Below the pieces are notes generated by a model. The model did not search any database, had not been told where the DNA came from, and saw nothing but the letters and a program-made list of their open reading frames with translations. The translations under genes were made by a program, and so were the position numbers. From Verrucomicrobia bacterium Ga0077533 (GTDB lineage Bacteria > Verrucomicrobiota > Verrucomicrobiia > Opitutales > Opitutaceae), in the NCBI GenBank assembly GCA_001464505.1, contig LNEH01000155.1, forward strand, positions 30,430 to 94,429: a DNA stretch of 64,000 nucleotides, written 5' to 3'. Each line of letters begins with the position of its first letter. Position 1 is the stretch's first letter. Below, in pieces: positions 28,500 through 50,791 of this stretch.

Positions 28500-30317
28500 A
28501 TGCCTAAGTCCCCGACCTCACCCAAGAAGGCCGCCAAGCCCGAGGCGCCCGCCGCCCGCATCCTTTCCCCTCGCCGCAAGACCACCGAGGCCACCTCGCT
28601 GCACGGGCTGGCCATCGAGCAACTGGAGCATTTCCACATCGATCCGCGGAGCGAGGCGGGCAAGCCGCTGCTCGCCCTCGCCGAGAAACTCTACGGCGCG
28701 CACGGCGACGTGATGGACCTGTGGGAGGCCACGACGCGCGAGCTGGGCCGCCTGCCGCGACAGGACCGCCTCGCGCTGTTCAACGCCAAGAAGTTCCTCT
28801 CGTTCCAGTTGGCGAAGCTGCTCGACACCCTGCAAAATCCGTCGCGCAAGACCCACCAGTCGCTCCGCTACTCCAACGCGACGATGCTGGCGAAGGGCCC
28901 CTACCCGGTCTTCGACAACGTCACGGCCATCTTCTCGGCCACGCCCGTCATCACCCGCACCGCGACCTACCTCTACGCCTGCTCCGAGTGGATCGACGAC
29001 GCTTTCCAGGGCCGCGAGTTCCTGCACGAGATCTACTCGCGCCTGATGAACCCGACCTCGATCTCGCTCGCCAACCACATCGTGGACATCGAGGCGGGCC
29101 CGATGGCCGGTGAATACATGGCCTGGAACTTCAACTCCGGCATGGGGGCCATCGACGCCGCGCTCTCGCACCTTGTCGGCTACGAGGACGTCGTCCTCTC
29201 CTCGCGCAACATCTACGGCGGCGCCCACCAGTTGCTGCACGACTGGTTCGGCAAGCGCTCCAACCTGAACGTCGGCGTGGTGTTCTTCGACGGCTTCACC
29301 GCCGGTGATTTCACCAAGGCCCTCGCCGGGGTGAAGAAGCAATACGCCGACCGCCTCAAGGCCGGCCGCCGTGTCTATGTCTACCTGGAAAGCCCCTGCA
29401 ACCCGCACGGCGTGTTTCTCGACGTGCCCGGCATCTGCGCCGCCGCGCATGCCGCCGGCCTGACCGTCATCTGCGACAGCACCGTCGGCACTCCCTTCCT
29501 CGTCCGTCCGTTGCAACAGAAGAATCCCGCCGAACGTCCCGATTACGTCATCCACAGCTACACCAAGGACCTCACCGGCCACGGCACCACGACCGCCGGC
29601 GTCGTCATCGGCCGCAATGAGGACATGTTCCTGCCCAAGGGCGACACCTCGCCCTCCGGCAAGAGCTGGCACGACACGCTATTCTGGAACGTCTACTACA
29701 TCAAGGGCGCGTTCCTCGACTCCGACAAGGCCTTCGAGGTGCTCACCGGCATGAAAACCCTCGAGCTGCGCATGCTCAAGAAATGCATCAACACGCTCGT
29801 GTTCGCGCGCTGGCTGGCGAGCAACCCGCTGGTCACCGTCAGCGGCCCGGCCAACGAGGCCGATCCAAACCACGCCATCGCCGCCCGCCTCTCCTACCTC
29901 GGCCTGCCTGCCCCGCTCTTCACCATCAACTTCGAGGCGGCGAAGATCACGCGGGTCACCCTGGAGCGTTTCTTCGATTCGCTCGCGCCGATGTTCGGCC
30001 ACATGGTGTCGCTCGGCCAGAGCAACACCCTCGTGCTCTGCCCCGCGCTCACTTCGCACTCCGAACTCAGCCCCGCGGCCCTCAAGGAGGCCGGCATCAC
30101 GCCGACCACGATCCGCATCTCGGTCGGCGACGAATCACCGCGCGAACTTATCGGCGATTTCCTGGCCGCCGCCCGGGCCATCAACGACGCAATCCCCGGC
30201 TTCACGAAGAAGTTCATGCCGACCGGCGCCATCGACGCGATGGTCGACGAGATCTACGCCGACGTCCACAAGCGCCACGCCGCGGCCCAGCCCCGCCTCG
30301 CCGAATGTGTAAGGTAA
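28500..30317 (+). CDS. Cys/Met-metabolism PLP-dependent enzyme (cystathionine gamma-synthase-like) with N-terminal extension
   Basis: NHIVDIEAGPMAGEYMAWNFNSGMGAIDAALSHL, VICDSTVGTPFLVRP, VIHSYTKDLTGHGTTTAGVVIG. Confidence 0.8.
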   Translation: MPKSPTSPKKAAKPEAPAARILSPRRKTTEATSLHGLAIEQLEHFHIDPRSEAGKPLLALAEKLYGAHGDVMDLWEATTRELGRLPRQDRLALFNAKKFLSFQLAKLLDTLQNPSRKTHQSLRYSNATMLAKGPYPVFDNVTAIFSATPVITRTATYLYACSEWIDDAFQGREFLHEIYSRLMNPTSISLANHIVDIEAGPMAGEYMAWNFNSGMGAIDAALSHLVGYEDVVLSSRNIYGGAHQLLHDWFGKRSNLNVGVVFFDGFTAGDFTKALAGVKKQYADRLKAGRRVYVYLESPCNPHGVFLDVPGICAAAHAAGLTVICDSTVGTPFLVRPLQQKNPAERPDYVIHSYTKDLTGHGTTTAGVVIGRNEDMFLPKGDTSPSGKSWHDTLFWNVYYIKGAFLDSDKAFEVLTGMKTLELRMLKKCINTLVFARWLASNPLVTVSGPANEADPNHAIAARLSYLGLPAPLFTINFEAAKITRVTLERFFDSLAPMFGHMVSLGQSNTLVLCPALTSHSELSPAALKEAGITPTTIRISVGDESPRELIGDFLAAARAINDAIPGFTKKFMPTGAIDAMVDEIYADVHKRHAAAQPRLAECVR

Positions 30318-31273
30318 AGACCTTCGTTGCCGCCTGCGTCTTAGGCGCCACGGTCGCCAGTTTCGGCTCTGTGCCTGCCGCCACCACGGCCGGCACCGTG
30401 AGCGAAAATTCGTTTCCTTCTGCCAGCCTGCAGCACGACCTCGCATACATGCTTTACCTTCCGCCCGGCTATGATGTGACGGCGGCAGTGCGATACCCCG
30501 TGCTCTACCTGCTGCACGGACGCGGCGACAAGATGGCCGCGTGGACGCACATCAAGGCCGACCTTGATGTGCTGATTGTTTCGGGTCGGATCCCGCCGGT
30601 CATTGCCATCATGCCCGACGCACCCGCCAGCCGGCGGGCGGGCTACTACATTGACTCGCAGTTCACCGGCTCGGCCGACCTCACGCTGCCGCCGGGCGAA
30701 CCAGTGGAGACCGCCTTCACGCAGGATTTGATCGCGCATGTCGACGCCAACTACCCGACCCGGACTGACCGGGCCGGCCGCATCGTTGCCGGCTATTCGA
30801 TGGGTGGCTACGGCGCGCTGCGCTACTCCCTCGCGCATCCTGAATTGTTCGGCGCCGCCATCGTGCTGAGTCCGGCGGTTTATTTCCCCCTGCCACCGAC
30901 CGACTCCAGCACCCGCGAATTCGGCGCCTTCGGCAAGGGCGCGAAGCAATTCGATGACGAGGTTTACACGGCCAAAAACTATCCCGCGCTCATCCCGGGA
31001 TTCGTCGCTGCGGGTCGGCCGTTGGTCATGTTCATCGCCGTGGGCGATGATGAAAAGGCCCTGACCGATCCGGCGGAGGCGGCCCACGACCTCGATTACG
31101 AGGCCCACACCCTCTACAACAAAATCCGCCGGATCCCGCTTGTCACCGCCCAGCTGCGGGTGATCGACGGCGGACATGGTTGGGACACGTGGCGCCCGGC
31201 CTTTGTCGAAGGCATCGAACACGTTTTCGGCCGGCTCAAGGCTGCTCCGGCGCCAGCCGCCCCGCGGCGTTGA
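30305..31273 (+). CDS. secreted alpha/beta-hydrolase, esterase-D/feruloyl-esterase-like
   Basis: Signal peptide; YPVLYLLHGRGDKMAAWTH, RIVAGYSMGGYGALRYSLAHPELF; start at ATG 30305 overlaps upstream gene. Confidence 0.8.
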   Translation: MCKVKTFVAACVLGATVASFGSVPAATTAGTVSENSFPSASLQHDLAYMLYLPPGYDVTAAVRYPVLYLLHGRGDKMAAWTHIKADLDVLIVSGRIPPVIAIMPDAPASRRAGYYIDSQFTGSADLTLPPGEPVETAFTQDLIAHVDANYPTRTDRAGRIVAGYSMGGYGALRYSLAHPELFGAAIVLSPAVYFPLPPTDSSTREFGAFGKGAKQFDDEVYTAKNYPALIPGFVAAGRPLVMFIAVGDDEKALTDPAEAAHDLDYEAHTLYNKIRRIPLVTAQLRVIDGGHGWDTWRPAFVEGIEHVFGRLKAAPAPAAPRR

Positions 31274-31294: not shown

Positions 31295-33700
31295 TCACGC
31301 GGCGGTCTTGCTCTTCGGACTGAAGATCGTGAGGCCTTCCAACGACTGGGCGGGCGGCGGGAACAGGAGGCTGCCGAGATAGCCGGTCACAATGCAGATA
31401 AAAATCGAGATCGGCATGTAGAAATAGGGATGAACCAGGTTTTGCGACCAGGCGACGACGGTCAGCATGATGCTGATCGTGATGCCGATGACCACCCCTT
31501 GCCAGTTGGCGCGCCGGGTGAACATTCCCAGGGTGTAGGCACCGGCAAACCCGCCGCTAAGCAGGCCGGAAAGCTCGATCGAGACGTCGAACAGGGAGTC
31601 GATATCATAGCGTGAAAGCAGAAGCGCCAACCCCATGCCGATGATGCCGGCGCCAACCGTCATCCACTCGGCCAGGCGCACGCTCACGGCGGGGTCCGGC
31701 TTTTTCACCAGCTTCTCGTAGAAATCAACCGAGGCGAGCGTGGCCACGCTGTTCAAGATGCTGGAGAGCGTCGACATCGAGGCGGCGAGAATGCCGGCAA
31801 TGATCAGGCCAGTGACACCCACGGGGAGTTCCGCGGCGATGAAAAGCGGGAACGTGGCGTCGGTCGTGAGCAGCGGATTCATCCGCTCCGGGTGGGCCTT
31901 GTAGAAGACGTAGAGCGCGGTGCCAATCAGGTAGAACATGAAGCCGCCGGGCACCATGATGGCCGCGAAAGTCCAGATTGACCGGCTCGCCTCCGGCGCA
32001 GATTTGGTGGACAGCACCCGTTGCATCAGCACCTGATCCTTCGGAAAGGTGAGCACGACATCGAACAACACGAGAAAGATGAAACCCCAGACCGTCGCCT
32101 TCGTCAGGTCAAAGCTCCAGTCGAAGAGCTGCGTCTTATTCTCGGCCGCCGCCGTCGCGAAGAATTCGCCGAATCCGCCATCGAGCTTGAAGACGATGAA
32201 GCCGATCGCGAAGAGCGCGCCGCCAAACATGACAAAGAGTTGCAGGCAGTCCGTCCAGATTACGGCCTTCATCCCGCCCATCGCCGTGTAGCCGATCGTG
32301 ACCGTCCCCATGATCAAAATGCTCCAGACGACATCGAGTCCGGTGATGGTGGAGATCGCGAGCGACGGCAGGAACAGCACCACGCTCATGCGTCCGCCCA
32401 ATTGCATGGCGATGCAGAGCGCGCTCGAGATCGTGCGGATCGCGGGGTGGAAGCGGGTTTCAAGGTAGTGGAACACCGACATCAGGTCGAGGCGCCGGAG
32501 CAGCGGCACGATCCAGACGGCGACGAACATGAGAGCCAGCACCGCGACCAGGTTGTTCATCAGATACTGCCAGTTGGTCGCGAAGGCCTTGGCCGGAATC
32601 GCGATGTAACTGATCGAACTGGTGTTGGTGGCATAGAGGCTGATGCCTGCGGCCCAGTAGGGGATGCTGCGCCCGCCAACGAAAAACTCCGCCGTCGAGT
32701 GCTTCTTCTCGCGCAAGTAAAAATAGAGCCCGATGCCAATCGTGCCCCCGAGGTAGATGGCAACGACCAGCCAATCGAGCGACCCGACCAGCCGCTGGGT
32801 TGGCTCAAGCTCCGCGAACGAAACAGCCGTTGCCCCGGCCTTCGCCTCCGCCCACAAGACACCGTTCTTCCAGCCTGCGCCGGAACTGACCACCGGGTCA
32901 CCCAACTCCTGCAATACGGCCGAAGAACCCGTGATCGTGTGAAATGACACCAGGCGCACCCCCGCCACCGGCGGCCCGTGCAGCAAGTAGAGAATGTGGC
33001 CTTGTCCAATGGGGCGCGCCGTGCCGCTGACCACCCGGCCCGGCAGCGAAGGCTTTGCCAGCCAGCCGGTCTCCAACGTCCAGCGCAGAAGGGAATCTAC
33101 GCTCCCTTCGGGGCCGCGCACGGTAAGGAACAGCGCCTGGTCCTGCGCAACCAATGACGTCGCCTCGCCGGTGTCACCGGGCCAGTCGGCGTGCGGCGTC
33201 CAGCCCGTTGCGGGTGCCGCCAAGTTGAGCGAAAACATCTTCCCGACACCGCCGGAGTCGAGGCCAACAACAAACAACTGATCCGCGCGCACCGCACCCT
33301 GCACGGATTGAAGCGCCGTCGGAAGCGGAGCCAGTGCGCGGGTGACGAGTCGGTTCCCCTCGAGGGTCAGGCGTTCAACTCGCGAAGTCGCATCGTCGTT
33401 TGTCCGGCCGGCGAGCAGGAAGGCTCCGATGCCGTCGGGCACGACGGCATTCACTGGTGCCGACGGCTGCGCCCACTCCAACGGCATCCACTCCCGGCGG
33501 TTTTCGTCATACGCCGAGACTGACGCCGAGGCGAACGCGACTGGGCGACCGGCCAGCACAGTCAAATGCCCCTCGGTGGTCGGACCGGCCAACTCCCCCA
33601 GCGACCCGGTGCGCACCGGAACCAGATTCTCCGCACGCAAGGGCAGAAATGCGCCGAGCAGCAGCAAACAGATGGGCAGGCCCGGCAATGGGGATTTCAT
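31295..33700 (-). CDS. sodium:solute symporter with N-terminal extracytoplasmic Kelch-like domain
   Basis: Signal peptide MKSPLPGLPICLLLLGAFLPLRA, ~330-aa beta-propeller-like region, then SSS core GGRSIPYWAAGISLYATNTSSISYIAIPAKAFATNW. Confidence 0.82.
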   Translation of the reverse strand: MKSPLPGLPICLLLLGAFLPLRAENLVPVRTGSLGELAGPTTEGHLTVLAGRPVAFASASVSAYDENRREWMPLEWAQPSAPVNAVVPDGIGAFLLAGRTNDDATSRVERLTLEGNRLVTRALAPLPTALQSVQGAVRADQLFVVGLDSGGVGKMFSLNLAAPATGWTPHADWPGDTGEATSLVAQDQALFLTVRGPEGSVDSLLRWTLETGWLAKPSLPGRVVSGTARPIGQGHILYLLHGPPVAGVRLVSFHTITGSSAVLQELGDPVVSSGAGWKNGVLWAEAKAGATAVSFAELEPTQRLVGSLDWLVVAIYLGGTIGIGLYFYLREKKHSTAEFFVGGRSIPYWAAGISLYATNTSSISYIAIPAKAFATNWQYLMNNLVAVLALMFVAVWIVPLLRRLDLMSVFHYLETRFHPAIRTISSALCIAMQLGGRMSVVLFLPSLAISTITGLDVVWSILIMGTVTIGYTAMGGMKAVIWTDCLQLFVMFGGALFAIGFIVFKLDGGFGEFFATAAAENKTQLFDWSFDLTKATVWGFIFLVLFDVVLTFPKDQVLMQRVLSTKSAPEASRSIWTFAAIMVPGGFMFYLIGTALYVFYKAHPERMNPLLTTDATFPLFIAAELPVGVTGLIIAGILAASMSTLSSILNSVATLASVDFYEKLVKKPDPAVSVRLAEWMTVGAGIIGMGLALLLSRYDIDSLFDVSIELSGLLSGGFAGAYTLGMFTRRANWQGVVIGITISIMLTVVAWSQNLVHPYFYMPISIFICIVTGYLGSLLFPPPAQSLEGLTIFSPKSKTAA

Positions 33701-33852: not shown

Positions 33853-36030
33853 TTAGAATTTGATCGTATGACTGAGGGAAATGACCCTTCCCCTTCCCGC
33901 AAAATAGTTCAGGAACTGGTCAATTTGTGACCATGGCAGGATATAGAACTTGTTGGTCAAGTTCTCCACGCCCAAGGCGAAGTCGCCCCATTGGGTGGCA
34001 TAGTTTACGGTCAAATGGTGCAGCGTGAGGCCCGAGGTGCGTTCTTCGCCCGACGCACCGACATTGATGTCACGCTTGAAGAGGTTGTCCTGATACAGAG
34101 TCATGCTGCCTTTGTCCGAGAACTTCCAGGTGGCGGACAGATTGAGTTTGTCTGGGCTGATGCTGGCCATGCCCATTTGGCGCGTTAACGGCCCTGTTTC
34201 GGTGGTCCTTGTCATCCCCTTGGTGTGCGAATAGGTGGCATTGAATTTGAACATCTTGTTCGGCCTGAATTCTCCGGTGACTTCCCAACCTTTCAGATCG
34301 ACCGGCCGGCGCTGCATGACGAAGTCCCGCGTGACCGGATCGACCGTCAATGTCACTCCAAAGTCTGAATAGGATTTGTAGTAAGAGGCATTGAAGCTCG
34401 CCTTCTTGCCGTTCCAAGTCACACCCACCTCCTTGTTGTCCGCGATGACCGCCTGCAGGTCGAGAATGCCCGCCACTGACTGGCCCACGGTATTCACATT
34501 GCGCAGGGGGATGCCAACGTTCGGCAAAGTGTAACCCTTGCTGTAGGAACCAAAGACCGACCAGTTGCGGGGCAGCCGCACGATCAGGCCGGCATTCGGG
34601 AGTGTTTCCTGATAACCCAGCGTGCCACCCGTAACCGCCACCCGGTTCCGGAAGTAAGTGGTGGTATAGTTATCGACCTGCAATTCGCCATCTTCGCGGC
34701 GCACGCCGCCACTCACCGTCACGGGGCCGCGGGCGTAGGAGGCCTGCACGAAAGGCGCATTGCTGGTGAAATTCATCGGCGGCACCCACACGCGGGCGGT
34801 CAGGGCGAGTATCTGCTGGGCGGTCTCGTCCAGAATGTCGAAGCCCGTATTAACTTCCAAGCCGGCCACACCGAACAGCTCTTTGTGGGACCAGGAGCTG
34901 CGCAGGCCTCGCTTCTGTGAATTAATTTCCGACTGATCGACCAGCGTGCCCAACGGAGCGATAAGGGGATCCTGGCGGTCGGCGCCATCTTCGGTAAGGA
35001 AGCGCATGGCCTGGCTGGCCTTGTAGATCTGGACATTCAACGAGCCGCCCAGAAGATTCGCGTGGTTGTAGGCCAAGGCGTATTGGTTGAAATCATTGAA
35101 CTCCGTCTTAGAATTAAGGGGCCGGCCGCGGCGGGCCGAGTCAGGAATGCCGAGGCTGCGATCGCCAAACTCGAAGATATAGTTGCCTCTGCCCTCGATG
35201 TGAAACCGGCTGACGGTCAGGGTGGCGCGTTGGTTATTATTTTCCCCGAAGGTGTGGCCTGCCTTGATGAACAGATTCTGGGATTCCGAATCGTTGATCG
35301 AGCCGCTCTGGCTCATCCCCTGCCTCCGGCCATTGGCATCATAGGACATGCCACGTTTGCTGAAGGAGGTGCCAACAACCAAGTCTTTGTTGCCTGACTT
35401 GTGGTAGTAGTTGAGACCCACCCTCCAACTCGTGCTGTCTTCGTCATCGTAACCCGCGATAGAGAACTTCGAGCGCAGCACCGCCTCGCTGCCCTCTTTT
35501 TCCGGGCTCTTCGAGATATAGTTGATGATGCCACCCACTGCTCCGATGCCCTCCGATGCCGATGGTCCGTTGATGACTTCAATCCGGCCGACGACATCCA
35601 TGTCCGTAAAGGTTCCATTACGACTGCCCTCACGCAGCGGCGTAGTTTGGGAAATGCCATCAAACAGGCGCAGGGCGACGCGCCCACGCAGCGTCTCGCC
35701 GGTGTTGTTCATGGCCTGCGTCGCAGGAGCGTAACCCGGGACAATCCTGGACAACACCGCCGTGGCGTCATCTGTCAGTATTTGCGTCCCCGCTATTTCC
35801 GAAGTTGTGATCAACTTGATTGCCCCGGGAATCTGGTCGATCGCCTTGGGCGACCGGTAGCCGGTGGTGACGGTTAATTTCTCCAGCTTGACCACTTCCT
35901 CTTCGGTCTTGTCAGCGTCCGCGACGGGCGTGGTTGTCGTCTGGGCGAGGCCTGTGGCGGCAAAGGCGATGAACAGTAACGCCGCAACCAGGGTCGCGAC
36001 GGATTTGGTTCGGGTAGGGTATGTTTTCAT
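33853..36030 (-). CDS. TonB-dependent receptor
   Basis: Plug domain and C-terminal SLSHTIKF; signal peptide MKTYPTRTKSVATLVAALLFIAFAATGLAQ. Confidence 0.9.
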   Translation of the reverse strand: MKTYPTRTKSVATLVAALLFIAFAATGLAQTTTTPVADADKTEEEVVKLEKLTVTTGYRSPKAIDQIPGAIKLITTSEIAGTQILTDDATAVLSRIVPGYAPATQAMNNTGETLRGRVALRLFDGISQTTPLREGSRNGTFTDMDVVGRIEVINGPSASEGIGAVGGIINYISKSPEKEGSEAVLRSKFSIAGYDDEDSTSWRVGLNYYHKSGNKDLVVGTSFSKRGMSYDANGRRQGMSQSGSINDSESQNLFIKAGHTFGENNNQRATLTVSRFHIEGRGNYIFEFGDRSLGIPDSARRGRPLNSKTEFNDFNQYALAYNHANLLGGSLNVQIYKASQAMRFLTEDGADRQDPLIAPLGTLVDQSEINSQKRGLRSSWSHKELFGVAGLEVNTGFDILDETAQQILALTARVWVPPMNFTSNAPFVQASYARGPVTVSGGVRREDGELQVDNYTTTYFRNRVAVTGGTLGYQETLPNAGLIVRLPRNWSVFGSYSKGYTLPNVGIPLRNVNTVGQSVAGILDLQAVIADNKEVGVTWNGKKASFNASYYKSYSDFGVTLTVDPVTRDFVMQRRPVDLKGWEVTGEFRPNKMFKFNATYSHTKGMTRTTETGPLTRQMGMASISPDKLNLSATWKFSDKGSMTLYQDNLFKRDINVGASGEERTSGLTLHHLTVNYATQWGDFALGVENLTNKFYILPWSQIDQFLNYFAGRGRVISLSHTIKF

Positions 36031-36043
36031 GGGGCAGGGGTAG

Positions 36044-36055
36044 GCAGACGTTTGC
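36044..36055. promoter_or_regulatory. candidate LacI-type operator, one mismatch (GCAGACGTTTGC)
   Basis: Immediately upstream of TonB receptor start at 36030. Confidence 0.45.
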
Positions 36056-36238
36056 GTTGGGTGTGGGGAGTCTGAAATATCTAGGGGTGGCGTCGGAGGC
36101 GGGGAGCAGAATGCTTCAGTTGCGGGGCCGGGTCTGGATCAGACTGGACGGGCGTTGGGAAGTGACTGTGTTCCAAGGGAGAGGAACGTAGAAAACATTT
36201 GGGGCTTGTGGGGTGGGAAAGCTAACGTCCAAGTTTAA

Positions 36239-36250
36239 GCAAACGTTTGC
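36239..36250. promoter_or_regulatory. candidate LacI-type operator GCAAACGTTTGC (perfect palindrome)
   Basis: Between divergent TonB receptor and ADP-ribosylglycohydrolase genes; identical to 38480-38491. Confidence 0.75.
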
Positions 36251-36460
36251 ATTGGCGACGATTTTTAGTTTTCGTCATCGTGTCAACTTTTTTGTTATCT
36301 CATTCAGAAGAGACCCACATAAACGGTCCGAAGATTTTACCAGCCAAGGTTCCGCTCAGTGGACCATAAAACCGTGATCATGACGGCAATGACTGACCGG
36401 AGATTTACCACTCAAGCTTCCCCCACCCAAAAGATTCAGCCACCAAACCATAAGAACATC

Positions 36461-37459
36461 ATGCTAACCAAGAATGACCTGTTGAAAAACAAGGCCCTGC
36501 TGCAAGACCGGGCCCGGGCCAGCCTCGTGGGTCACGCGATCGGTGATTCATTCGGTGATATTGCCCGTTCCCCGGAATATCATCTGCAATATGGCATCAC
36601 CATGGATTTTTCGGACAAGCCGGCACCGGGAACGGATGACACCGAATTTGCCCTGTTGACGGCGCAGACGCTGATCAAGGCCAGCGGAAATTTGACCGAT
36701 GCAGATGTCCTCGAAAGTTGGCGGACCCATGTGCTGCCCCTGTCGGAGTTGAAGCGCGGCGGGGCGAGCGAGCGGGAAGCGGCGGCCAATATCCGGCGCG
36801 GAATATTGCCCCCGCATTCCGGCATCTATAACTCCTATTGCACGAGTGATGGCGCGGCCATGCGGGTGACGCCGATTGGCATCGCCTGTGCCGGTGACCC
36901 GGGGCGAGCCGCGACTTTGGCGGAGATTGATGCCCGTATCAGTCATTCCAGAGATGGACTGTGGGGCGCCCAAGCGGTGGCGGCCGCAGTGGCCGTGGCG
37001 ATGGCCGGTGCCTCGGCCGATGAAGCATTTCAGGCGGCGATCAATGTTACCCCTCCGGATTCATGGATAAGATACGCCTTCACGAAAGCGTTGAGCATCA
37101 TCGAAGAGCAGCAAACGCTGGAAGCCGCTTGGAAGCCGCTGCATGATGCCTTGTGGACCGAATACAAAGCAATTGCCCCCGAAGCGGTCGCTTCTGCACT
37201 GGCCATCGTGAAACTGACCAACGGAGATTTTAAGCGGGGCATTATTTACAGCGGGAATTTCGGCCGCGATGCCGACACCATTTCCGCGATAGTCGGGGCG
37301 ATCAGCGGAGCAATGAATGGGATGGGCCGCATCCCGCCACACTGGATCGAAAAGGTGCGTCTCACCACGGGCGTTTGTCTGCCTTTCACCAAGGGGATGG
37401 ATCTTTTTGACGTTTCTGCCCAATTAGCAGACTTGGTCACCCTTTCCCCTGAACTGTGA
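36461..37459 (+). CDS. ADP-ribosylglycohydrolase family protein
   Basis: ARASLVGHAIGDSFGDIARSP, GTDDTEFALLTAQTLI, GNFGRDADTISAIVGAISGAMNG. Confidence 0.88.
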   Translation: MLTKNDLLKNKALLQDRARASLVGHAIGDSFGDIARSPEYHLQYGITMDFSDKPAPGTDDTEFALLTAQTLIKASGNLTDADVLESWRTHVLPLSELKRGGASEREAAANIRRGILPPHSGIYNSYCTSDGAAMRVTPIGIACAGDPGRAATLAEIDARISHSRDGLWGAQAVAAAVAVAMAGASADEAFQAAINVTPPDSWIRYAFTKALSIIEEQQTLEAAWKPLHDALWTEYKAIAPEAVASALAIVKLTNGDFKRGIIYSGNFGRDADTISAIVGAISGAMNGMGRIPPHWIEKVRLTTGVCLPFTKGMDLFDVSAQLADLVTLSPEL

Positions 37460-38419
37460 TGTTGCTGTTTTGCGCAGAAACCGCTTCAGCTCTTTCCGCG
37501 TGGGCATCGCGAACGCCGCGCCGGGTTTGGTGATCGACAGCGCGGCCACCGCCGTGCCATGGCGAGCCGCCTCGGCGATCCGGCCCTTGTAGCGAACCAG
37601 TCCCGCCGCGAAACCTCCGCAGAACGCGTCGCCGGCGCCGGTCGTATCCACCACCTTCAGGCCACGATGGGCCGGGATGAACATGTGCCTGGCTTTCTCC
37701 GAAATAAAACAGCCCCGGCTGCCCATGGTCACGATCAGGGTTGGCACCTTGAACAGGCGGCATAAGGCATGCAGTGCCTCCCGCGGCATCGCATGCAATG
37801 CCCGCTCGTCGAAATTCCGCCGGTGAATCTCCGGCAGTTTGCGCACGAGAGCGATGAACTCACCCTCGTTTGGAATCAGGATGTCAACGTGCCGCAATAA
37901 CCGCGGGTTAAAATCATGCCGCATCGGCGCGGGATTCAGCACCGTCGTCACCCCGGCCCGATGGGCGAGACGGAGCGTGTGCGCCGTGGTCGACAGGTTT
38001 GATTCCAATTGAGTGACCACCACTTTCGCGCCCGTCAGCAGCGCCCGGGGCACATCACCCGGGGCCAGCCGGGCGTTGGCCCCCGGCTCAATCACGATCA
38101 TGTTCTGTCCCTCGCCGTTGAGCAGGATCACGGCGGTGCCCGTGGGCCGATCCGTCTTGAGCGCAAGCCGGCAGCCGATTTTCTCGCGGCGGTAGAAAGC
38201 GGCCACCTCGCCGGCGTAGGCGCCGCGCCCCATCGCGCCGACAAACATCGTGCGCACACCGGCGCGCCCGCAGGCGATGGCCTGGTTGGACCCTTTGCCG
38301 CCCTGGCCGACTGCCAGCCGGGCTATGACCGTCTGCCCACCCTGTGGAAAATCCGCGCAGGCAAACGTCATGTCCTGCATGATGCTGCCAACGACGAGGA
38401 CTTGCGGGGAGGTGGGCAT
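37424..38419 (-). CDS. PfkB-family carbohydrate kinase (ribokinase-like)
   Basis: GQGGKGSNQAIACGRAG, VVDTTGAGDAFCGGFAAGL. Confidence 0.92.
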   Translation of the reverse strand: MPTSPQVLVVGSIMQDMTFACADFPQGGQTVIARLAVGQGGKGSNQAIACGRAGVRTMFVGAMGRGAYAGEVAAFYRREKIGCRLALKTDRPTGTAVILLNGEGQNMIVIEPGANARLAPGDVPRALLTGAKVVVTQLESNLSTTAHTLRLAHRAGVTTVLNPAPMRHDFNPRLLRHVDILIPNEGEFIALVRKLPEIHRRNFDERALHAMPREALHALCRLFKVPTLIVTMGSRGCFISEKARHMFIPAHRGLKVVDTTGAGDAFCGGFAAGLVRYKGRIAEAARHGTAVAALSITKPGAAFAMPTRKELKRFLRKTATSQFRGKGDQVC

Positions 38420-38479
38420 GATAAAACGGATGGATGCTGGCGGAGCGTTTGCTCGGGGCAGCCTGAAAGGCAAATTTAT

Positions 38480-38491
38480 GCAAACGTTTGC
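38480..38491. promoter_or_regulatory. candidate LacI-type operator GCAAACGTTTGC
   Basis: Between lacI-type gene 3' end and kinase start. Confidence 0.75.
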
Positions 38492-38537
38492 CGCCACCTT
38501 GCGTCAAGAGAAACAATTGCTCCCGGAGCCGGGAAGC

Positions 38538-39503
38538 TCAGCAGGATTTCCGGATGATCAGCTCAGGCATGAGCTTGAGACTTGTGGCGGGTCGTTTGCC
38601 GTCCTCAATGCGCTTTAATAGCAACTCCGCGGCATACTTTCCCACCTCGTAAGCAGGCTGACGGACGACAGTTAATGGCGGGTTAAACACGTCTGGCAGC
38701 ATCTTCAGCCCGCGAGCCGCGATAGCTTCGAGTGCGCCCGCCGTCATCAGCCCGTTGCAGGCAAACAGCGCTGTGGGCGGCTCGGCCAGGGAAAGCAGCT
38801 CGTGCGCAATGGTCTCTCCACTGGCCTGCTTGTAATCGCCGAAGCGTATCAGTTCCGGCTTGAGCGCGAGCCCTGCCTGCGCATGCGCGTCCTTGTAACC
38901 GCGCAGGCGCTCCCGTCCGGTCGAAGAGTCCGCCGGACCGCCGATGAGGCCGATCCGTCGGTGGCCGCGCGCGATGATGTGCTCGACGGCCTTCAGCGCC
39001 CCGGTGTGGTTGTCGACCTCCACTTTATCCAGATTACCGCTCGACAGGCTGCGGTCCACGCACACTACCGGAGTGCCATTGCGCACCACCTGCAGCACCG
39101 CCGGGTCGGTCTCGTGGATCGGGGGCAGGATGATGCCGTCCACGGACTCCGACTGCAAGACGTCGAGGTAGAACCGCTCCTTGGCCTCGTCCTCGTCGTA
39201 ATTGCACAACAGCACGGCATAGTTGCTCTTATAGGCCACATCCTCGACCCCCCGCGCTAGGTCGGCAAAAAAGATGTTCTGGATGTTCGGGATGATCAGA
39301 CCCAGCAGATGGCTGCTGCTGTCGCGCGTGCGCAGCCGGCGGGCTACGCGGTTGGGTTTGTAGCCCAGTTCGCGCATGGCTTTCCGCACCCGGGCCTGGG
39401 TTTCCGAACCGATCTTGCCCGTCTGGTTGATTGTGCGCGAGACCGTCGAAATGTTCACCTTCGCCCGGCGGGCCACGTCGATCAGACTGGAGGGCTTATT
39501 CAT
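38538..39503 (-). CDS. LacI-family transcriptional regulator (apparent internal deletion)
   Basis: SSLIDVARRAKVNISTVSRTINQTGKIGSETQARVRKAMRELGYKPNRVARRL; C-terminal region reads LPDV|FNPPLTVVRQP, lacking the usual xxGFDDxxWA segment. Confidence 0.88.
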   Translation of the reverse strand: MNKPSSLIDVARRAKVNISTVSRTINQTGKIGSETQARVRKAMRELGYKPNRVARRLRTRDSSSHLLGLIIPNIQNIFFADLARGVEDVAYKSNYAVLLCNYDEDEAKERFYLDVLQSESVDGIILPPIHETDPAVLQVVRNGTPVVCVDRSLSSGNLDKVEVDNHTGALKAVEHIIARGHRRIGLIGGPADSSTGRERLRGYKDAHAQAGLALKPELIRFGDYKQASGETIAHELLSLAEPPTALFACNGLMTAGALEAIAARGLKMLPDVFNPPLTVVRQPAYEVGKYAAELLLKRIEDGKRPATSLKLMPELIIRKSC

Positions 39504-39618
39504 GGAGTGGGCGGGCAAGGCGGGACGCGGGCGGGAGATTTTAAATAGCGCAGGCAATTTGCGGAAATCCCCCGCCGCACGCAAGGCACGATTTGGGTAG
39601 ACATGCGGAAAAGGTTGA

Positions 39619-39630
39619 GCAAACGATTGC
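39619..39630. promoter_or_regulatory. candidate LacI-type operator, one mismatch (GCAAACGATTGC)
   Basis: Upstream of both lacI (start 39503) and the glycosidase-like/FGE gene (start 39771). Confidence 0.5.
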
Positions 39631-39770: not shown

Positions 39771-41924
39771 ATGAGCAAACCCCAGCGCGCCCCGGTCGCC
39801 CAGATCGCCGAATACCAGCTCTCCCACTTCAGCACGGGCGCCCACCTCCCGACCCCCGGCAAGATGCCGGGTTGGCCCATGAACAATATCGGCCAGTGGC
39901 GGATCGACGTGAACGATAACGCCGAGGTCTGGTTGCGCGATTTGCGCGAATGGCGCCACGAGCACCTCATCCGGATGGGTTACAACGACGCGCAATACCG
40001 CCGCCCGGAACTCGCGTGGTCGCAGCGCAACTTCGTCCACACGCAAATGATGGTCGAGGACCGGTATTTTTATGATCCGGTCGCGGAAAAATACACGGTG
40101 GACAAATACCTCGACGATCTCGATCGCCGCTACGGCGGCATTGACAGCGTGCTCCTCTGGTATGTCTATCCGAACATCGGCATTGACGACCGCAACCAGA
40201 CCGATCTCGCCAGCGACCTGCCGGGCGGGCTCGCCGGTCTCAAGCAGGCCGTCGCGGATTTCCAGCGCCGCGGCGTGAAGGTGTTCATCCCGACGATGGC
40301 GTGGGACAACGGCACCAAGCCCACCGGCACGACCGATTGGGACGCGATTGTCCGCCTCGCCGCTGCGCTCGGCGTCGATGGCGTCAACGGCGACACCTAC
40401 AACGGCGTGCCCCGCGCCTTCCTCGATGCTTCGCAGGCAATCGGGCATCCTCTCGTATTCCAGCCCGAGTCCGCGCCCACCGCCGACGAAGGTCTGATGT
40501 GGAACCACCAGAGCTGGGGCAAGGCCTCCACCGAGATCATCCCCGCCGTCAGCAAGCTCAAGTGGCTCGAGCCGCGCCATCTCATCAACGTCGAGAACCG
40601 CTGGGCCCGTGACCGCACCGACGATTTCCATTACATCTTTTTCAACGGCCTCGGCTACGTCAGCTGGGAGAATGTCTGGGGCGTCTGGAACCAGTTCACG
40701 CCTCGCGATGCCGAGACCCTGCGCCGCATCGCCACCTTGCAGCGCAAATTCGCCGGTCTCCTCGTCAGCCCCGATTGGGAACCCTACGCCCGCGCGCTCC
40801 AGCAGGGAGTATTCGCCACTAAGTTCCCCAGTCGCGACGCCACACTCTGGACCATCGTCAACCGCAACGAATACGACATGGCCGGCGACCAGCTGCGTGT
40901 GGCGCATCGGGACGGTCGCCGTTACTACGACTTGTGGAACGGCACGGAAATTTCCCCGCGCCTCGCAGACGGCCAGGCTGTCATCGCCCTCCCGCTCGAG
41001 ACGCGCGGCTACGGCGCTGTGCTCGCTGTCGAAAGTGGAGCGCAATTGGAAGGCCTGCCCGCGTTCCTTACCCGCATGAAGGAGCTGGCCAAGGTTCCGC
41101 TCCAATCCCTCTCCAACGTCTGGCAGGCAATCCCGCAGCAAATCGTGCCCATCGCCCCGACGAAGCCCGTCGCCACCGCGCCGGCCGGCATGGTGACGAT
41201 CCCGGCCGGCGAGTTCGACTTCAAGGTCGCGGGCATCGAGATCGAGGGCTACACGTGGAAGGGCCTCGACTTCCAATACCCATGGGAAAATTCCGCACGC
41301 CGCGCCCACCTGCACCGCATGGCGCTGACGTCCTTCCACATCGATCGCTATCCGGTGACCAACGCGGATTTCAAGAAGTTCATCGGCGCGACCGGCTACC
41401 GCCCGAAGGACGACCACCATTTTCTCCGCGACTGGAAAGACGGCGCGCCGCAAACCGGCTGGGAGAAGAAACCCGTCACCTGGGTCTCGCTCGAGGACGC
41501 CCGCGCTTACGCCGCGTGGGCCGGCAAGCGCCTGCCGCATGAATGGGAATGGCACTACGCCGCCCAAGGCACCGACGGCCGACTTTACCCCTGGGGCAAC
41601 GACTGGAACACGGCCAACATGCCCAAGCCAAACCGCGGCCGCACGCTGCTGCCGCCAGACGACGTCGACACCCACCCGGGCGGTGCCAGCCCGTTCGGCG
41701 TCATGGATCTGGTCGGCAATGTCTGGCAGTGGACCAACGAATATTTTGACGAGCACACCCGCGCTGCGGCGCTCCGCGGCGGCAGCTCTTACCAACCTCA
41801 GACCTCGCACTGGTATTTCCCGCAGGCCTACCAGCTCGACCAGCATGGCAAATACCTCCTGATGTCCCCCGGCAAGGACCGCAGCGGCATGCTCGGCTTC
41901 CGCTGCGTGGTCGACGCCAGCTGA
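39771..41924 (+). CDS. glycosidase-like protein fused to C-terminal formylglycine-generating-enzyme (SUMF1-type) domain
   Basis: N-term TIM-barrel-like region (SVLLWYVYPNIGIDDRNQTDLASD...VFIPTMAWDNGTKP); C-term MVTIPAGEF, RYPVTNADFKKFI, KRLPHEWEWHYAAQGTDGRLYPWGND, LVGNVWQWTNEYFDEH, GMLGFRCV. Confidence 0.75.
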   Translation: MSKPQRAPVAQIAEYQLSHFSTGAHLPTPGKMPGWPMNNIGQWRIDVNDNAEVWLRDLREWRHEHLIRMGYNDAQYRRPELAWSQRNFVHTQMMVEDRYFYDPVAEKYTVDKYLDDLDRRYGGIDSVLLWYVYPNIGIDDRNQTDLASDLPGGLAGLKQAVADFQRRGVKVFIPTMAWDNGTKPTGTTDWDAIVRLAAALGVDGVNGDTYNGVPRAFLDASQAIGHPLVFQPESAPTADEGLMWNHQSWGKASTEIIPAVSKLKWLEPRHLINVENRWARDRTDDFHYIFFNGLGYVSWENVWGVWNQFTPRDAETLRRIATLQRKFAGLLVSPDWEPYARALQQGVFATKFPSRDATLWTIVNRNEYDMAGDQLRVAHRDGRRYYDLWNGTEISPRLADGQAVIALPLETRGYGAVLAVESGAQLEGLPAFLTRMKELAKVPLQSLSNVWQAIPQQIVPIAPTKPVATAPAGMVTIPAGEFDFKVAGIEIEGYTWKGLDFQYPWENSARRAHLHRMALTSFHIDRYPVTNADFKKFIGATGYRPKDDHHFLRDWKDGAPQTGWEKKPVTWVSLEDARAYAAWAGKRLPHEWEWHYAAQGTDGRLYPWGNDWNTANMPKPNRGRTLLPPDDVDTHPGGASPFGVMDLVGNVWQWTNEYFDEHTRAAALRGGSSYQPQTSHWYFPQAYQLDQHGKYLLMSPGKDRSGMLGFRCVVDAS

Positions 41925-41945: not shown

Positions 41946-42806
41946 ATGCGCAGCAAGCTGTTCGTCCCGGGTTCCCGCCCCGAATTTTTCCCCAAGGCCC
42001 TGGCCAGCCAGGCCGACAGCCTGTCTTTTGACTTGGAGGACGCCGTGCCTGAAGCCGGCAAGGCCGAGGCCCGGCGCCTCATCGGACAGGCGTTGCAATC
42101 TCCTGACTTCGCTGCGTCGAAAAAGACTATTATCGTGCGCGTTAACGGGCTGGCGACCCCACATTTCACAGCCGATCTCGCCGCCGTCGTCGGGCCACGT
42201 CTCGACTTGCTCAATTTGCCCAAAGTGGAGTCGGCCGAAGACATTCGCACAGTAGCCAAGGCTCTCACCCATCTTGAGGCTGAACGCGGCCTTATCCGCC
42301 CCATCGGCATCCTCGCCAATATCGAATCGCCCCGCGGGCTCAGGTTCGCCGCTGAGATTGCTTGCGCCGATCCACGCGTGGCGGGCCTGCAAATCGGTTT
42401 CGCCGACCTCCTGGAGCCGCTCGGCATCGACCGCACCGATGCCGCGGCCATCCATCAGCTCCAGCTCGCGGTGCGCCTGGCTGCCGGCGAGGCCGGCATC
42501 TGGGCCTGCGATGCCGCCTATGGGAACCTCAAGGATCTGGACGGTTACCGGACTGAGGCCGTCGCCGCCAAGCGTCTTGGTTACATCGGGAAATCCTGCA
42601 TTCACCCGAGCCAGATCGCGCTGGCCAACGAGATTTTCCGCCCCACCGCCGAAGAAATCGCCTTCGCCGCGCGTGTCGTGGAGGCTGCGGGCCGGACGAG
42701 CGTCGGCGCTTTCACCATCGACGGCCGAATGATTGACGCACCTTTCATCAAGCGCGCTCACGCCGTCCTTGCCATCGCCCGGCAACTTCCGCCACCGGCG
42801 CCGTGA
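41946..42806 (+). CDS. HpcH/HpaI aldolase/CitE family CoA-ester lyase
   Basis: MRSKLFVPGSRPEFFPKALASQADSLSFDLEDAVP, GYIGKSCIHPSQI. Confidence 0.9.
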   Translation: MRSKLFVPGSRPEFFPKALASQADSLSFDLEDAVPEAGKAEARRLIGQALQSPDFAASKKTIIVRVNGLATPHFTADLAAVVGPRLDLLNLPKVESAEDIRTVAKALTHLEAERGLIRPIGILANIESPRGLRFAAEIACADPRVAGLQIGFADLLEPLGIDRTDAAAIHQLQLAVRLAAGEAGIWACDAAYGNLKDLDGYRTEAVAAKRLGYIGKSCIHPSQIALANEIFRPTAEEIAFAARVVEAAGRTSVGAFTIDGRMIDAPFIKRAHAVLAIARQLPPPAP

Positions 42807-42816
42807 TTCCGCAGCC

Positions 42817-44061
42817 ATGCCCCTGAAAAAGCGCGACTACGACCCCGCCGCACGCGGCCCGCTGCAAGGTATCCGCGTGCTCGACCTGTCGCGGCTGTTT
42901 GCGGGCAACGTGCTGACCCAGATTCTCGGCGACTTCGGTGCCGAGGTCATCAAGGTCGAGCCGCCCGAGGGTGACACCCTGCGTGCGTGGCAGACCAACG
43001 GCGTGTCCACGCACTGGAAGATCTATGCGCGCAACAAGAAGAGCCTCGCGCTCGATCTGCGCAAACCCGAGGCCATTGAACTGCTCCGCCGGCTGGTTCC
43101 CTCCGCCACGCTGTTGATCGAGAGCTTTCGTCCGGGCGTTTTGGAAAAAATGGGGCTCGCCCCCGAACTTCTCTTGGTCCTAAACCCAAAGCTCATCATC
43201 GTGCGCATCTCGGGTTGGGGCCAGGACGGCCCCTACAGCCGGCGCCCGGGTTTCGGCACCATCATCGAGGGCATGTCGGGGTTCGCTTCTTTCAACGGTT
43301 TCGCGGACCGTGAGCCCGTCCTGCCCCCCATGTATCTCGCCGACGGTGTCGCCGGGCTCTACGGTGCTTCGGCGGTGATGATCGCCCTGCGCGAGGTTGA
43401 GAAAAATGGCGGCTCCGGACAGGTCATCGACCTGCCCTTGCTTGATCCCCTGTTCGCCATCCTGAGTCCGCAGGCCGCCAACTATCGCCTCACCGGCAAG
43501 GTCAAGCCGCGCACCGGCAGCCGTTCGACCAATTCCGCGCCGCGCAATGTCTACCTTTGCAGTGACCGCAGGTATGTCGCGCTTTCCGCCTCGACCCAAG
43601 GCATGACCGAGCGCCTGTTCCGCGCCATGGGTCGCGCCGACCTGATCGATGACCCTCGTTTCCGCGCCAATGCCGCACGTGTGCAACACGCCGCGGAGCT
43701 CGACGCCATCATCGGCGCTTTCATGGGCCGGCACACGCAGGCGGAAAACGTCACGTTCTTCGAGAAGGCCGAGGTCACCGTCGGGCCGATCTACGACGTG
43801 TCGCAGATCCTCGAGGATCCGCATTTCATCCAGCGCGAGATCGTCGCCGATTATCCCGATCCCGACACCACGACCATTCCAATGCATCATGTCGTGCCGC
43901 GAATGCTCGGCACGCCCGGCGCGATCCGCTCCCGCGCCCCGAAATTGGGTGAACACAACCGGGAAATACTGGCGAGATGCGGGGTGAATGATTCGGAATA
44001 TGCCCGGCTGGCCGCCGCCGGCGTAGTGATTGCGGAGCAAGCCCCCGCCGCCAAACAGTGA
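42817..44061 (+). CDS. CaiB/BaiF family CoA transferase
   Basis: LQGIRVLDLSRLFAGNVLTQILGDFGAEVIKVEPPEGD, RNKKSLALDLRKPEAIELLRRLV. Confidence 0.92.
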   Translation: MPLKKRDYDPAARGPLQGIRVLDLSRLFAGNVLTQILGDFGAEVIKVEPPEGDTLRAWQTNGVSTHWKIYARNKKSLALDLRKPEAIELLRRLVPSATLLIESFRPGVLEKMGLAPELLLVLNPKLIIVRISGWGQDGPYSRRPGFGTIIEGMSGFASFNGFADREPVLPPMYLADGVAGLYGASAVMIALREVEKNGGSGQVIDLPLLDPLFAILSPQAANYRLTGKVKPRTGSRSTNSAPRNVYLCSDRRYVALSASTQGMTERLFRAMGRADLIDDPRFRANAARVQHAAELDAIIGAFMGRHTQAENVTFFEKAEVTVGPIYDVSQILEDPHFIQREIVADYPDPDTTTIPMHHVVPRMLGTPGAIRSRAPKLGEHNREILARCGVNDSEYARLAAAGVVIAEQAPAAKQ

Positions 44062-47026: not shown

Positions 47027-48571
47027 ATGAGTCTTGCCCCTACCCCCACCGGGAGCCGCACCCTGTTTCAACGGTTCCTTTCCGTCATCGAACGCGTTGG
47101 CAACACCCTGCCCAATCCCTCGACGCTCTTCGCCCTGCTCGCCGGAGTTGTTGTAATCTGTTCATGGATCTTCAGCCGGATGGGGGTGTCGGTCCTCCAC
47201 CCCGCCACCGGACAGACCGTGCCGGTGGTGAACCTGCTCAGCGTCGAGGGCCTGCACCGGATGTTGCTGAACGTGGTGCCGAACTTCGTGGGCTTTCCCC
47301 CGCTCGGCACCGTGCTGGCCTGCCTCGTCGGCATCGCGGTGGCGGAACGCACCGGGCTCGTCACCGCCGGCCTGCGGCTCATCGTGCTGGCCACGCCGCG
47401 CCGCTGGCTGGCCTCCGTCGTGGTGTTTGGCGGCATCCTGTCGCACTCGGGCGCGGATGTGGGCTACGTGCTCTTCATTCCGCTCGGCGCGGCGATGTTC
47501 CACGCCGTGGGCCGGCACCCGCTGGCGGGCCTCGCCGCGGCGTTTGCCGGCGTGTCGGGCGGGTTCAGCGCCAACATCGTGCTCGGCACGATCGACGCCC
47601 TGCTCGCCGGCATCACGCAGGCCGCCGCGGCCGTGGTGCGACCCGGCATCACGGTCAACCCGGCGGCCAACTGGTATTTCCTCATCGCCGCCAGCGTGCT
47701 CATCACCGTCGTCGGCACCTGGGTGACCGAGCGGATCGTTGAGCCGCGCCTCGGCTCCTACACGGGTGACGCCAAACCCGAGGTGATCAAACCCCTTGGC
47801 GCGGATGAAAAGCGCGGGCTCTGGTATGCCGTGTTCGCCACGCTGGGCGTGACCGCGCTCGTGCTTTGGGGCACGCTGACCGAGGGCGGCTTCCTGCTCG
47901 ACCCCAAGAACCCGGTGTTTCTCGCCTCCTACTTCATCCGCGGACTCATCTTCTTCATCTTCTTCTACGGTCTCGTGGCCGGCCTGGCCTACGGCATCGG
48001 CGCCCGCACCATCCGCAACGACAACGATGTCATCCGCGGCATGGACGCCTCGGTTTCCACCATGGGCTCCTATATCGTCATGGCCTTCTTCGCCGCCCAG
48101 TTTCTCGCTTACTTCAACTGGACCAATCTCGGCACCGTCATGGCGGTGAAGGGCGCAGGCGCAATCCAGGCCCTGAATCTGCAGGGCAGCCCCATCCTGC
48201 TCATGGTGTCGCTGGTGCTCTTCACCGCCGTCGTCAACCTCGTCATCGGCAGCGCCTCGGCCAAGTGGACGCTGCTGGCGCCGATCTTTGTGCCGATGTT
48301 CATGCTGCTCGGCTATTCGCCCGAGCTGGTGCAGGGCGCCTACCGCGTGGGCGACAGTTGCACCAACATCATCACGCCGCTGAACCAGTATTTTCCCCTG
48401 ATCCTCGGCTTCGCGGCCCGCTACGTGCCCAACACCGGCATCGGCACCATGCTCGCCACGATGATGCCCTATTCCATCGCCTTCCTGGTCTCGTGGACCC
48501 TGATGCTCATGGCCTGGATCGCGCTGGGCCTGCCGGTCGGGCCCGGCGCCGGGCTGTTCCTGCCGCAATAA
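47027..48571 (+). CDS. AbgT-family transporter, copy 1
   Basis: FLSVIERVGNTLPNPSTLFALLAG, FSANIVLGTIDALLAGITQ, YRVGDSCTNIITPLNQYFPLIL. Confidence 0.9.
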   Translation: MSLAPTPTGSRTLFQRFLSVIERVGNTLPNPSTLFALLAGVVVICSWIFSRMGVSVLHPATGQTVPVVNLLSVEGLHRMLLNVVPNFVGFPPLGTVLACLVGIAVAERTGLVTAGLRLIVLATPRRWLASVVVFGGILSHSGADVGYVLFIPLGAAMFHAVGRHPLAGLAAAFAGVSGGFSANIVLGTIDALLAGITQAAAAVVRPGITVNPAANWYFLIAASVLITVVGTWVTERIVEPRLGSYTGDAKPEVIKPLGADEKRGLWYAVFATLGVTALVLWGTLTEGGFLLDPKNPVFLASYFIRGLIFFIFFYGLVAGLAYGIGARTIRNDNDVIRGMDASVSTMGSYIVMAFFAAQFLAYFNWTNLGTVMAVKGAGAIQALNLQGSPILLMVSLVLFTAVVNLVIGSASAKWTLLAPIFVPMFMLLGYSPELVQGAYRVGDSCTNIITPLNQYFPLILGFAARYVPNTGIGTMLATMMPYSIAFLVSWTLMLMAWIALGLPVGPGAGLFLPQ

Positions 48572-48592
48572 CCGCCGCCAGCCCCCACCCCC

Positions 48593-50137: not shown

Positions 50138-50161
50138 GTTGCGCCTGCGGCGGCGGCTCGC

Positions 50162-50791
50162 TTGCCTCCCGCCGTGCAATTCGAGCCCGGGCTGTATCCC
50201 TGGATTTCCGTCGCCGCTCTCGCCTGGGGGCTGCTCGACTGTTTTTTCGGCTACAAGATTTTCAAGTTCACCATCGCCCTGCTCGGCGCGGTCACCGGCG
50301 GGCTGCTGTGTCAGGCCGGGGCGGCGGCCGCCGGGCTCGGCGGCAACGGCGGACTCGCGGCCGTTCTGGGCGGCGCGCTGCTGGGCGCCGGTCTCGCGTT
50401 CCTGTTCTATCTGGCGGCGGTGTTCTTCGCGGGCTTCGGCTTTGGCGCGACGCTGGCGGTTTTGCTCCTCTCCCACTTCAACCACCTGGTGGCGCTGTTT
50501 GCCGCCATCGTTGCGGGGCTGGTCGGCGGTTTCGCGGCTCTCAAACTGCAGAAACTCCTCCTCGCCCTCGCCACGGCGCTGCTGGGCTCGTTCCGCGCCG
50601 TGCTCGCGGTGGCCTATTTCACCAGCCAGCTCGACTGGCTCTACTACTTCCGCCAGCCGGACCAGATTCCCGCGTTGATTGACAACCATCCGTGGATGTT
50701 ACCCGCGATTCTCCTGCTCGCGACGGTCGGGGCGATTGCCCAGTTGGAGCCCGGCGGCGGCAAAAAGAAAACCAAGGAGAAAGACGAGTAA
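50162..50791 (+). CDS. multi-TM protein, DUF4203-like
   Basis: Repeated Gly-rich TM helices (LLGAVTGGLLCQAGAAAAGLGG...), Lys-rich C-terminus. Confidence 0.5.
   Translation: MPPAVQFEPGLYPWISVAALAWGLLDCFFGYKIFKFTIALLGAVTGGLLCQAGAAAAGLGGNGGLAAVLGGALLGAGLAFLFYLAAVFFAGFGFGATLAVLLLSHFNHLVALFAAIVAGLVGGFAALKLQKLLLALATALLGSFRAVLAVAYFTSQLDWLYYFRQPDQIPALIDNHPWMLPAILLLATVGAIAQLEPGGGKKKTKEKDE

Follow-up and report, generated by a model that had tools for sequence, protein, structure and literature searches.

To our knowledge, many bacterial genes of the ADP-ribosylglycohydrolase family, E. coli yegU included, have no known substrate. The substrates of glycoside hydrolase family 127 (GH127) are furanosides with an O-linkage or related sugars rather than nucleosides. 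The chemistry of its Glu/Cys and Cys-Cys zinc motif has been described (PMC10850190), and in the carrageenan locus of Zobellia, which holds GH127-family 3,6-anhydro-D-galactosidases, two non-homologous families share one activity (PMC5698469). The E. coli yegTUV operon is governed by the repressor YegW/GgaR (PMC10819704). Here we analysed a 64,000-nucleotide stretch of Verrucomicrobia bacterium Ga0077533 (Opitutaceae; contig LNEH01000155.1, positions 30,430 to 94,429), hereafter the window, and a gene island within it whose ADP-ribosylglycohydrolase gene occupies a position held by GH127 in related islands. We consider it fairly likely that one or the other of these two unrelated enzymes hydrolyses a glycoside within the cell after its import and that the sugar passes to the same kinase, all under a local LacI repressor. 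The source genome is a metagenome-assembled genome (MAG) of 2,925,075 bases that is 83% complete, making absences from it provisional.

Operators and repressor of the island

The original prediction, made from the window alone, proposed one LacI regulon joining uptake, hydrolase, kinase and FGE genes through four copies of the palindromic 12-mer GCAAACGTTTGC. All four sites lie where they had been placed, O2 and O3 as perfect palindromes and O1 and O4 with a single mismatch each (Table 1). Their assignment to promoters required adjustment, as the site given to lacI falls in the spacer from which lacI and the FGE gene diverge, and the site at 38480 in the gap from lacI to the kinase gene. Within the window, the number of sites with up to two mismatches was unremarkable (7 against 4.0 expected). 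Genome-wide, both exact copies lie in this island; when one mismatch is allowed the genome has seven sites, of which four fall within these 3.6 kb. A motif common at other places had been named in advance as grounds for dropping the idea; the scan showed that it is not frequent elsewhere. Promoter and terminator scans gave results no better than those for shuffled sequence.

To follow the island across the family, the LacI protein was used as a query. Close orthologs (80% or more) were present in many Opitutaceae, and their neighbourhoods were then compared in 17 other genomes of the family, with site statistics drawn from 19 islands (319 kb). These contained 69 sites, 60 of them exact, while simulated sequence (319 kb) yielded approximately no exact copies. 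In ten further genomes, 38 of 40 exact copies fell inside the orthologous island, including all four in a single-contig genome of 4.15 Mb. The places are also shared: the lacI/FGE-gene and lacI/kinase-gene spacers have one site each, and the divergent spacer ahead of the TonB receptor gene normally has two, with many receptor genes having an operator at a spacing similar to that of O1. In pairwise intergenic alignments, the 12-mers stood out as conserved blocks amid otherwise diverged spacer DNA. The shared palindrome in the spaces before target genes is thus both conserved and specific.

A LacI-domain search of the 83% complete assembly recovered a single gene, the island's own lacI, encoding a sugar-binding domain and an intact N-terminal helix-turn-helix. 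Among NCBIfam models its nearest matches were CytR, RbsR and PurR, at scores below the equivalog cut-offs (CytR, 198 versus 436; RbsR, 190 versus 382). The VGFDE loop of LacI-family proteins is an effector contact. In an alignment of the window copy with seven orthologs, this loop was present in all seven and removed from the window protein by a 13-residue in-frame deletion (39 bp), leaving it as the sole copy of the eight with an incomplete effector-binding core. The shortened protein may have an altered or absent response, or the assembly may be faulty at lacI. The claim of a regulon rests mainly on the relatives, because LacI is complete there. Taken together, motif specificity and conservation among relatives bear out a single LacI regulon and provide strong evidence that it is local and conserved across Opitutaceae, with the repressor predicted to bind the 12-mers.

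Two hydrolase families in one gene slot

The slot between the kinase and TonB receptor genes holds GH127 in 15 islands, an ADP-ribosylglycohydrolase in three (the window, L006, and L023), and both in none. L006 and L079 evidently represent a single contig, as do L023 and L077. Three GH127-type islands were scanned for PF07944, and their slot proteins matched this domain and the GH127 middle domain with E values of 4e-37 to 2e-41; in the other islands, GH127 identity was assigned by homology. The zinc ligands (ETC and CC) are kept in two slot proteins. A search of the window's own 83% complete assembly found no PF07944/GH127 protein.

The window hydrolase itself matched PF03747 only (169.5 bits against a gathering score of 26.2) and not GH127. 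Its AlphaFold model (predicted local distance difference test, pLDDT, 89) is all-helical and structurally matches MJ1187, ARH3, and DraG (template-modelling score about 0.7). Ligands for a binuclear metal site are in place, with T58 D59 D60 T61 (TDDT) invariant and D270-A-D272-T273 (DADT) nearly so. Scores for DraG and for Tri1-type protein de-ADP-ribosylases were far below their equivalog cut-offs (55 bits versus 337 and 50 versus 490, respectively), and no signal peptide was seen. Judged by its modelled fold, the protein is a normal member of its superfamily; its role alone is unusual.

From the pairing of this hydrolase with a ribokinase-like enzyme, the original prediction had suggested that a pentose is released from an N-glycoside. 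This is not supported as stated, as 15 related islands carry GH127 in the slot. A furanoside substrate, together with exchangeability of the two families, is consistent with that occupancy, and a furanoside would fit better than a nucleoside. Our search of the open-licence literature returned no report that links an ADP-ribosylglycohydrolase to citrate lyase or to arabinofuranosidase activity, nor one of its exchange with GH127.

The hydrolase and its neighbours differ in history. The window hydrolase was not found in 141 relatives (mostly of the genus and family) or in 387 genomes across the phylum. Its closest homologs, at about 80-86% identity, come from Ignavibacteriota and Bacteroidota MAGs, and as the window protein nests among them in the tree, transfer between phyla is indicated. 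Gene trees joined the window TonB receptor (99/99) and symporter (99/97) to the ADP-ribosylglycohydrolase-type island L079. CaiB (96/94), the esterase (94/89), LacI (87/89), and the kinase (82/98) were instead joined to the GH127-type island of a congener, L083; CitE agreed only weakly, and the FGE tree did not decide the grouping. The esterase gene is situated beyond the symporter gene, so the replaced stretch is flanked at either end by genes of the other history. Our reading of these trees is that the uptake and hydrolase genes were exchanged and the downstream part was kept. If so, the released product should suit the same kinase.

Island genes and homologous loci

Table 1. Positions in the window of the predicted island genes and operator sites.
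Feature	Position	Strand	Remarks
Putative secreted esterase	30305..31273	+	PF00756; convergent with symporter gene; conserved island end
Sodium:solute symporter (SSF)	31295..33700	-	N-terminal beta-propeller/mutarotase-like part, likely signal peptide; 85% to L006
TonB-dependent outer-membrane receptor	33853..36030	-	91% to L006; ~68% to GH127-type islands L030/L031
Operator O1	36044..36055		GCAGACGTTTGC, 1 mismatch; 14 bp before TonB receptor start codon
Operator O2	36239..36250		Perfect palindrome GCAAACGTTTGC; divergent spacer, TonB receptor gene/ADP-ribosylglycohydrolase gene
ADP-ribosylglycohydrolase-family hydrolase	36461..37459	+	PF03747, E 2e-49; in GH127 slot
PfkB/ribokinase-like sugar kinase	37424..38419	-	TIGR02152, 247 bits, under the cut-off of 300
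Operator O3	38480..38491		Perfect palindrome GCAAACGTTTGC; between lacI and kinase gene
LacI-family repressor	38538..39503	-	PF00356 and PF13377; only LacI-family gene found in assembly
Operator O4	39619..39630		GCAAACGATTGC, 1 mismatch; divergent lacI/FGE-gene spacer
FGE-gene protein	39771..41924	+	N-terminal region outside known families (possibly a TIM barrel, by eye); C-terminal FGE/sulfatase-modifying-factor-like domain
CitE-like hydroxyacyl-CoA lyase	41946..42806	+	HpcH/HpaI family
CaiB/BaiF family III CoA-transferase	42817..44061	+	Pfam/NCBIfam

Gene families were assigned with Pfam and NCBIfam, which upheld the earlier naming of the TonB receptor, SSS symporter, ADP-ribosylglycohydrolase, PfkB kinase, lacI, FGE, CitE, and CaiB genes. 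For the symporter, described before as a Kelch-SSS protein, the SSF domain held, and the Kelch part had weak support (NANM, E=3e-4; mutarotase model, E=2e-6). The true starts are likely 36461 (ADP-ribosylglycohydrolase), 38419 (kinase), 39503 (lacI), 39771 (FGE gene), 42817 (CaiB), and 30305 (esterase). No island protein reached an equivalog cut-off, so the gene names do not reveal substrates. The symporter passed only the broad sss superfamily model, the kinase stayed below the ribokinase equivalog, and the lyase fell short of both CitE (210 versus 443) and RipC (173 versus 375), making the HpcH/HpaI family level alone safe. An AlphaFold model of the FGE-gene protein from a two-sequence alignment was discarded (pLDDT 30), and the "glycosidase-like" label of its N-terminal region is accordingly putative. 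The CitE and CaiB genes do follow the FGE gene, as had been noted, and because they do so on the same strand in related islands too, they are probably island members. Elsewhere in the window, a minus-strand open reading frame of 1175 amino acids (47162-50689) lacks a Pfam match and overlaps long plus-strand frames; it is possibly a spurious antisense frame.

In loci of Ignavibacteriota, Bacteroidota, and KSB1, the close homolog of the window hydrolase commonly ends a row of as many as four adjacent ADP-ribosylglycohydrolase genes, and CitE-like genes come next in 11 of these loci. Those studied in detail also encode an ABC sugar-type transporter, esterase/beta-lactamase-fold proteins, and, as in citrate lyase, a CitD-CitE fusion with CitF. 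The tandem genes and the transporter are seen in L008, L012, L016, L019, and similar loci, mostly with the CitD-CitE fusion and CitF after them. We know of no described system that such loci match. CitE-like lyases thus recur beside the hydrolase in differing settings, with CaiB in Opitutaceae and CitF elsewhere, which suggests thioester cleavage of an acid moiety that the pathway makes or frees. Aceric acid is a known GH127-family substrate. Release of aceric acid by the hydrolase, with cleavage of this branched acid by CitE, would be chemically attractive but is speculative and was set aside. A link to the rus loci of Bacteroides, which serve ribose scavenging, was also considered, and a literature search gave no text supporting it.

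Other loci vary further. Some related islands additionally encode a sulfatase (L065, L074, and L075; Pfam-confirmed in L074) or an alpha-amylase-family protein (L066-L069; Pfam in L066 and L069), a hint that certain species may use a substrate of greater complexity, perhaps a sulfated one. A distant homolog from a Clostridia MAG (50%; L024:8299-9684) adjoins an AtuA-family protein and lies near a second ADP-ribosylglycohydrolase-domain protein of 694 amino acids. In other Verrucomicrobiota (L106 and L110), genes of a different ADP-ribosylglycohydrolase clade have a PfkB-type kinase gene and one for a ureide-permease-type transporter in their vicinity, an arrangement resembling E. coli yegTUV.

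Candidate pathway, rivals, and known systems

From the observed motif set, its conservation throughout Opitutaceae, and the either/or hydrolase in one slot, we infer the following mechanism. The local LacI repressor would hold down a nine-gene scavenging island through four GCAAACGTTTGC sites spread over three intergenic spaces, with the freed sugar or its phosphate as the likely effector. The TonB receptor would bring a small, possibly acylated glycoside across the outer membrane, the secreted esterase would trim it, and the symporter with its mutarotase-like domain would carry it into the cell. There, the metal-dependent ADP-ribosylglycohydrolase would free a furanose-type sugar, doing the job of the zinc-cysteine GH127 elsewhere, and the ribokinase-like enzyme would phosphorylate it. 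The FGE-domain protein may handle another part of the substrate. The CaiB CoA-transferase would activate an acid portion, and the CitE-like lyase would cleave the product.

Several observations weigh against this pathway. In the hydrolase tree, L006 and L023 form a pair to which the window is not placed as sister, and the window gene is inverted relative to theirs; with the gene inverted and the three not united, one or two acquisitions are possible. The window symporter clade also includes the GH127-type island L078, and the TonB receptor clade is sister to the GH127-type L070-L072, so the match between uptake genes and hydrolase type is not a clean one. GH127 spans several activities, and a shared slot therefore does not fix the substrate. 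In another Verrucomicrobiota family, a 1200-amino-acid protein fuses ADP-ribosylglycohydrolase and GH127 domains (L033:2905-6504) beside a kinase, an FGE-gene homolog, a ureide-permease-type transporter, and a class II aldolase. This fusion, although it counts in favour of the pathway, is a single case in the 388 genomes sampled and could equally mean two successive steps rather than alternatives. Finally, the incomplete LacI effector domain and the share of mismatched operators (2 of 4 in the window, 7 of 65 in the other islands) suggest that control in the window genome may be decaying.

Nucleoside or ribosyl salvage, in which the ADP-ribosylglycohydrolase cleaves a ribosyl N-glycoside, the kinase phosphorylates ribose, and GH127 islands serve a different substrate, appears unlikely. 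The kinase is nearest ribokinase and the repressor nearest the CytR, RbsR, and PurR models, yet every NCBIfam score is under its equivalog cut-off, and both proteins group with those of the GH127-using congener. E. coli yegTUV combines a nucleoside-symporter-like protein, an ADP-ribosylglycohydrolase, and a sugar kinase (PMC10819704), with 27% identity of the window proteins to YegU and YegV, and L033, L106, and L110 have a ureide-permease-type transporter and a kinase beside another ADP-ribosylglycohydrolase. However, yegTUV is itself without a settled function, and the island has no nucleoside hydrolase or base-handling gene.

We give still less credence to the hydrolase being a passenger, an enzyme of regulation or of protein de-ADP-ribosylation that came to lie in the island, the hydrolytic step having been lost with GH127. 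Its fold and metal motifs match DraG, ARH3, and MJ1187, its homologs come from other phyla, and LacI shows possible regulatory decay. Against this, it occupies the same slot in three genomes and in two gene orientations, with operators kept and the remaining island genes intact, and its relatives in other phyla sit in transporter/lyase clusters. That the operators serve a global regulator of catabolite control rather than the local LacI is very improbable: they resemble generic LacI/PurR-type operators, but only one LacI-family gene was found in the genome and the sites are nearly confined to the island.

Returning to the glycoside pathway, we tentatively suggest, at a little under even chances, that this ADP-ribosylglycohydrolase clade comprises true sugar-catabolic glycoside hydrolases that are exchangeable with GH127 in function, have passed from phylum to phylum, and act together with CoA- or ACP-dependent (acyl carrier protein) hydroxy-acid lyases in an undescribed route of glycoside breakdown. 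From the clean exchange with GH127, in an island that is both conserved and co-regulated, a definite function open to testing follows for one clade, namely the release of a furanose-type sugar from an imported glycoside. If true, this would set part of the family apart from protein de-ADP-ribosylation. One repressor, four sites, and almost no exact sites outside the island also make a clean system for finding the inducer and the substrate.

Each known system shares only part of this arrangement. DraG, ARH3, and MJ1187 have the fold and metal-binding motifs of the window hydrolase, which differs in its ~22% identity and its sugar-uptake setting rather than one of nitrogenase or protein modification. 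The GH127 beta-L-arabinofuranosidase family (HypBA1) is represented in the slot of related islands by proteins with the Zn Cys/Glu motif, whereas the window gene is not GH127. The Opitutaceae islands are much smaller than the Zobellia locus and lack a carrageenan pathway. The yegTUV operon likewise places a transporter, an ADP-ribosylglycohydrolase, and a PfkB kinase under a single-target repressor, but with a GntR regulator in place of LacI, a major facilitator superfamily transporter, no TonB receptor, CitE, or CaiB, and the low identity given above (27%). Local LacI-family catabolic regulons (RbsR, CytR, and PurR-like operators) share the palindromic operator with central CG, a repressor inside its own regulon, and kinase and transporter targets; the window LacI is not an ortholog of any NCBIfam equivalog, has nearly single-locus specificity, and has lost its VGFDE loop. 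The regulon is a new example of a familiar kind, and the exchange of GH127 and ADP-ribosylglycohydrolase is its unusual part.

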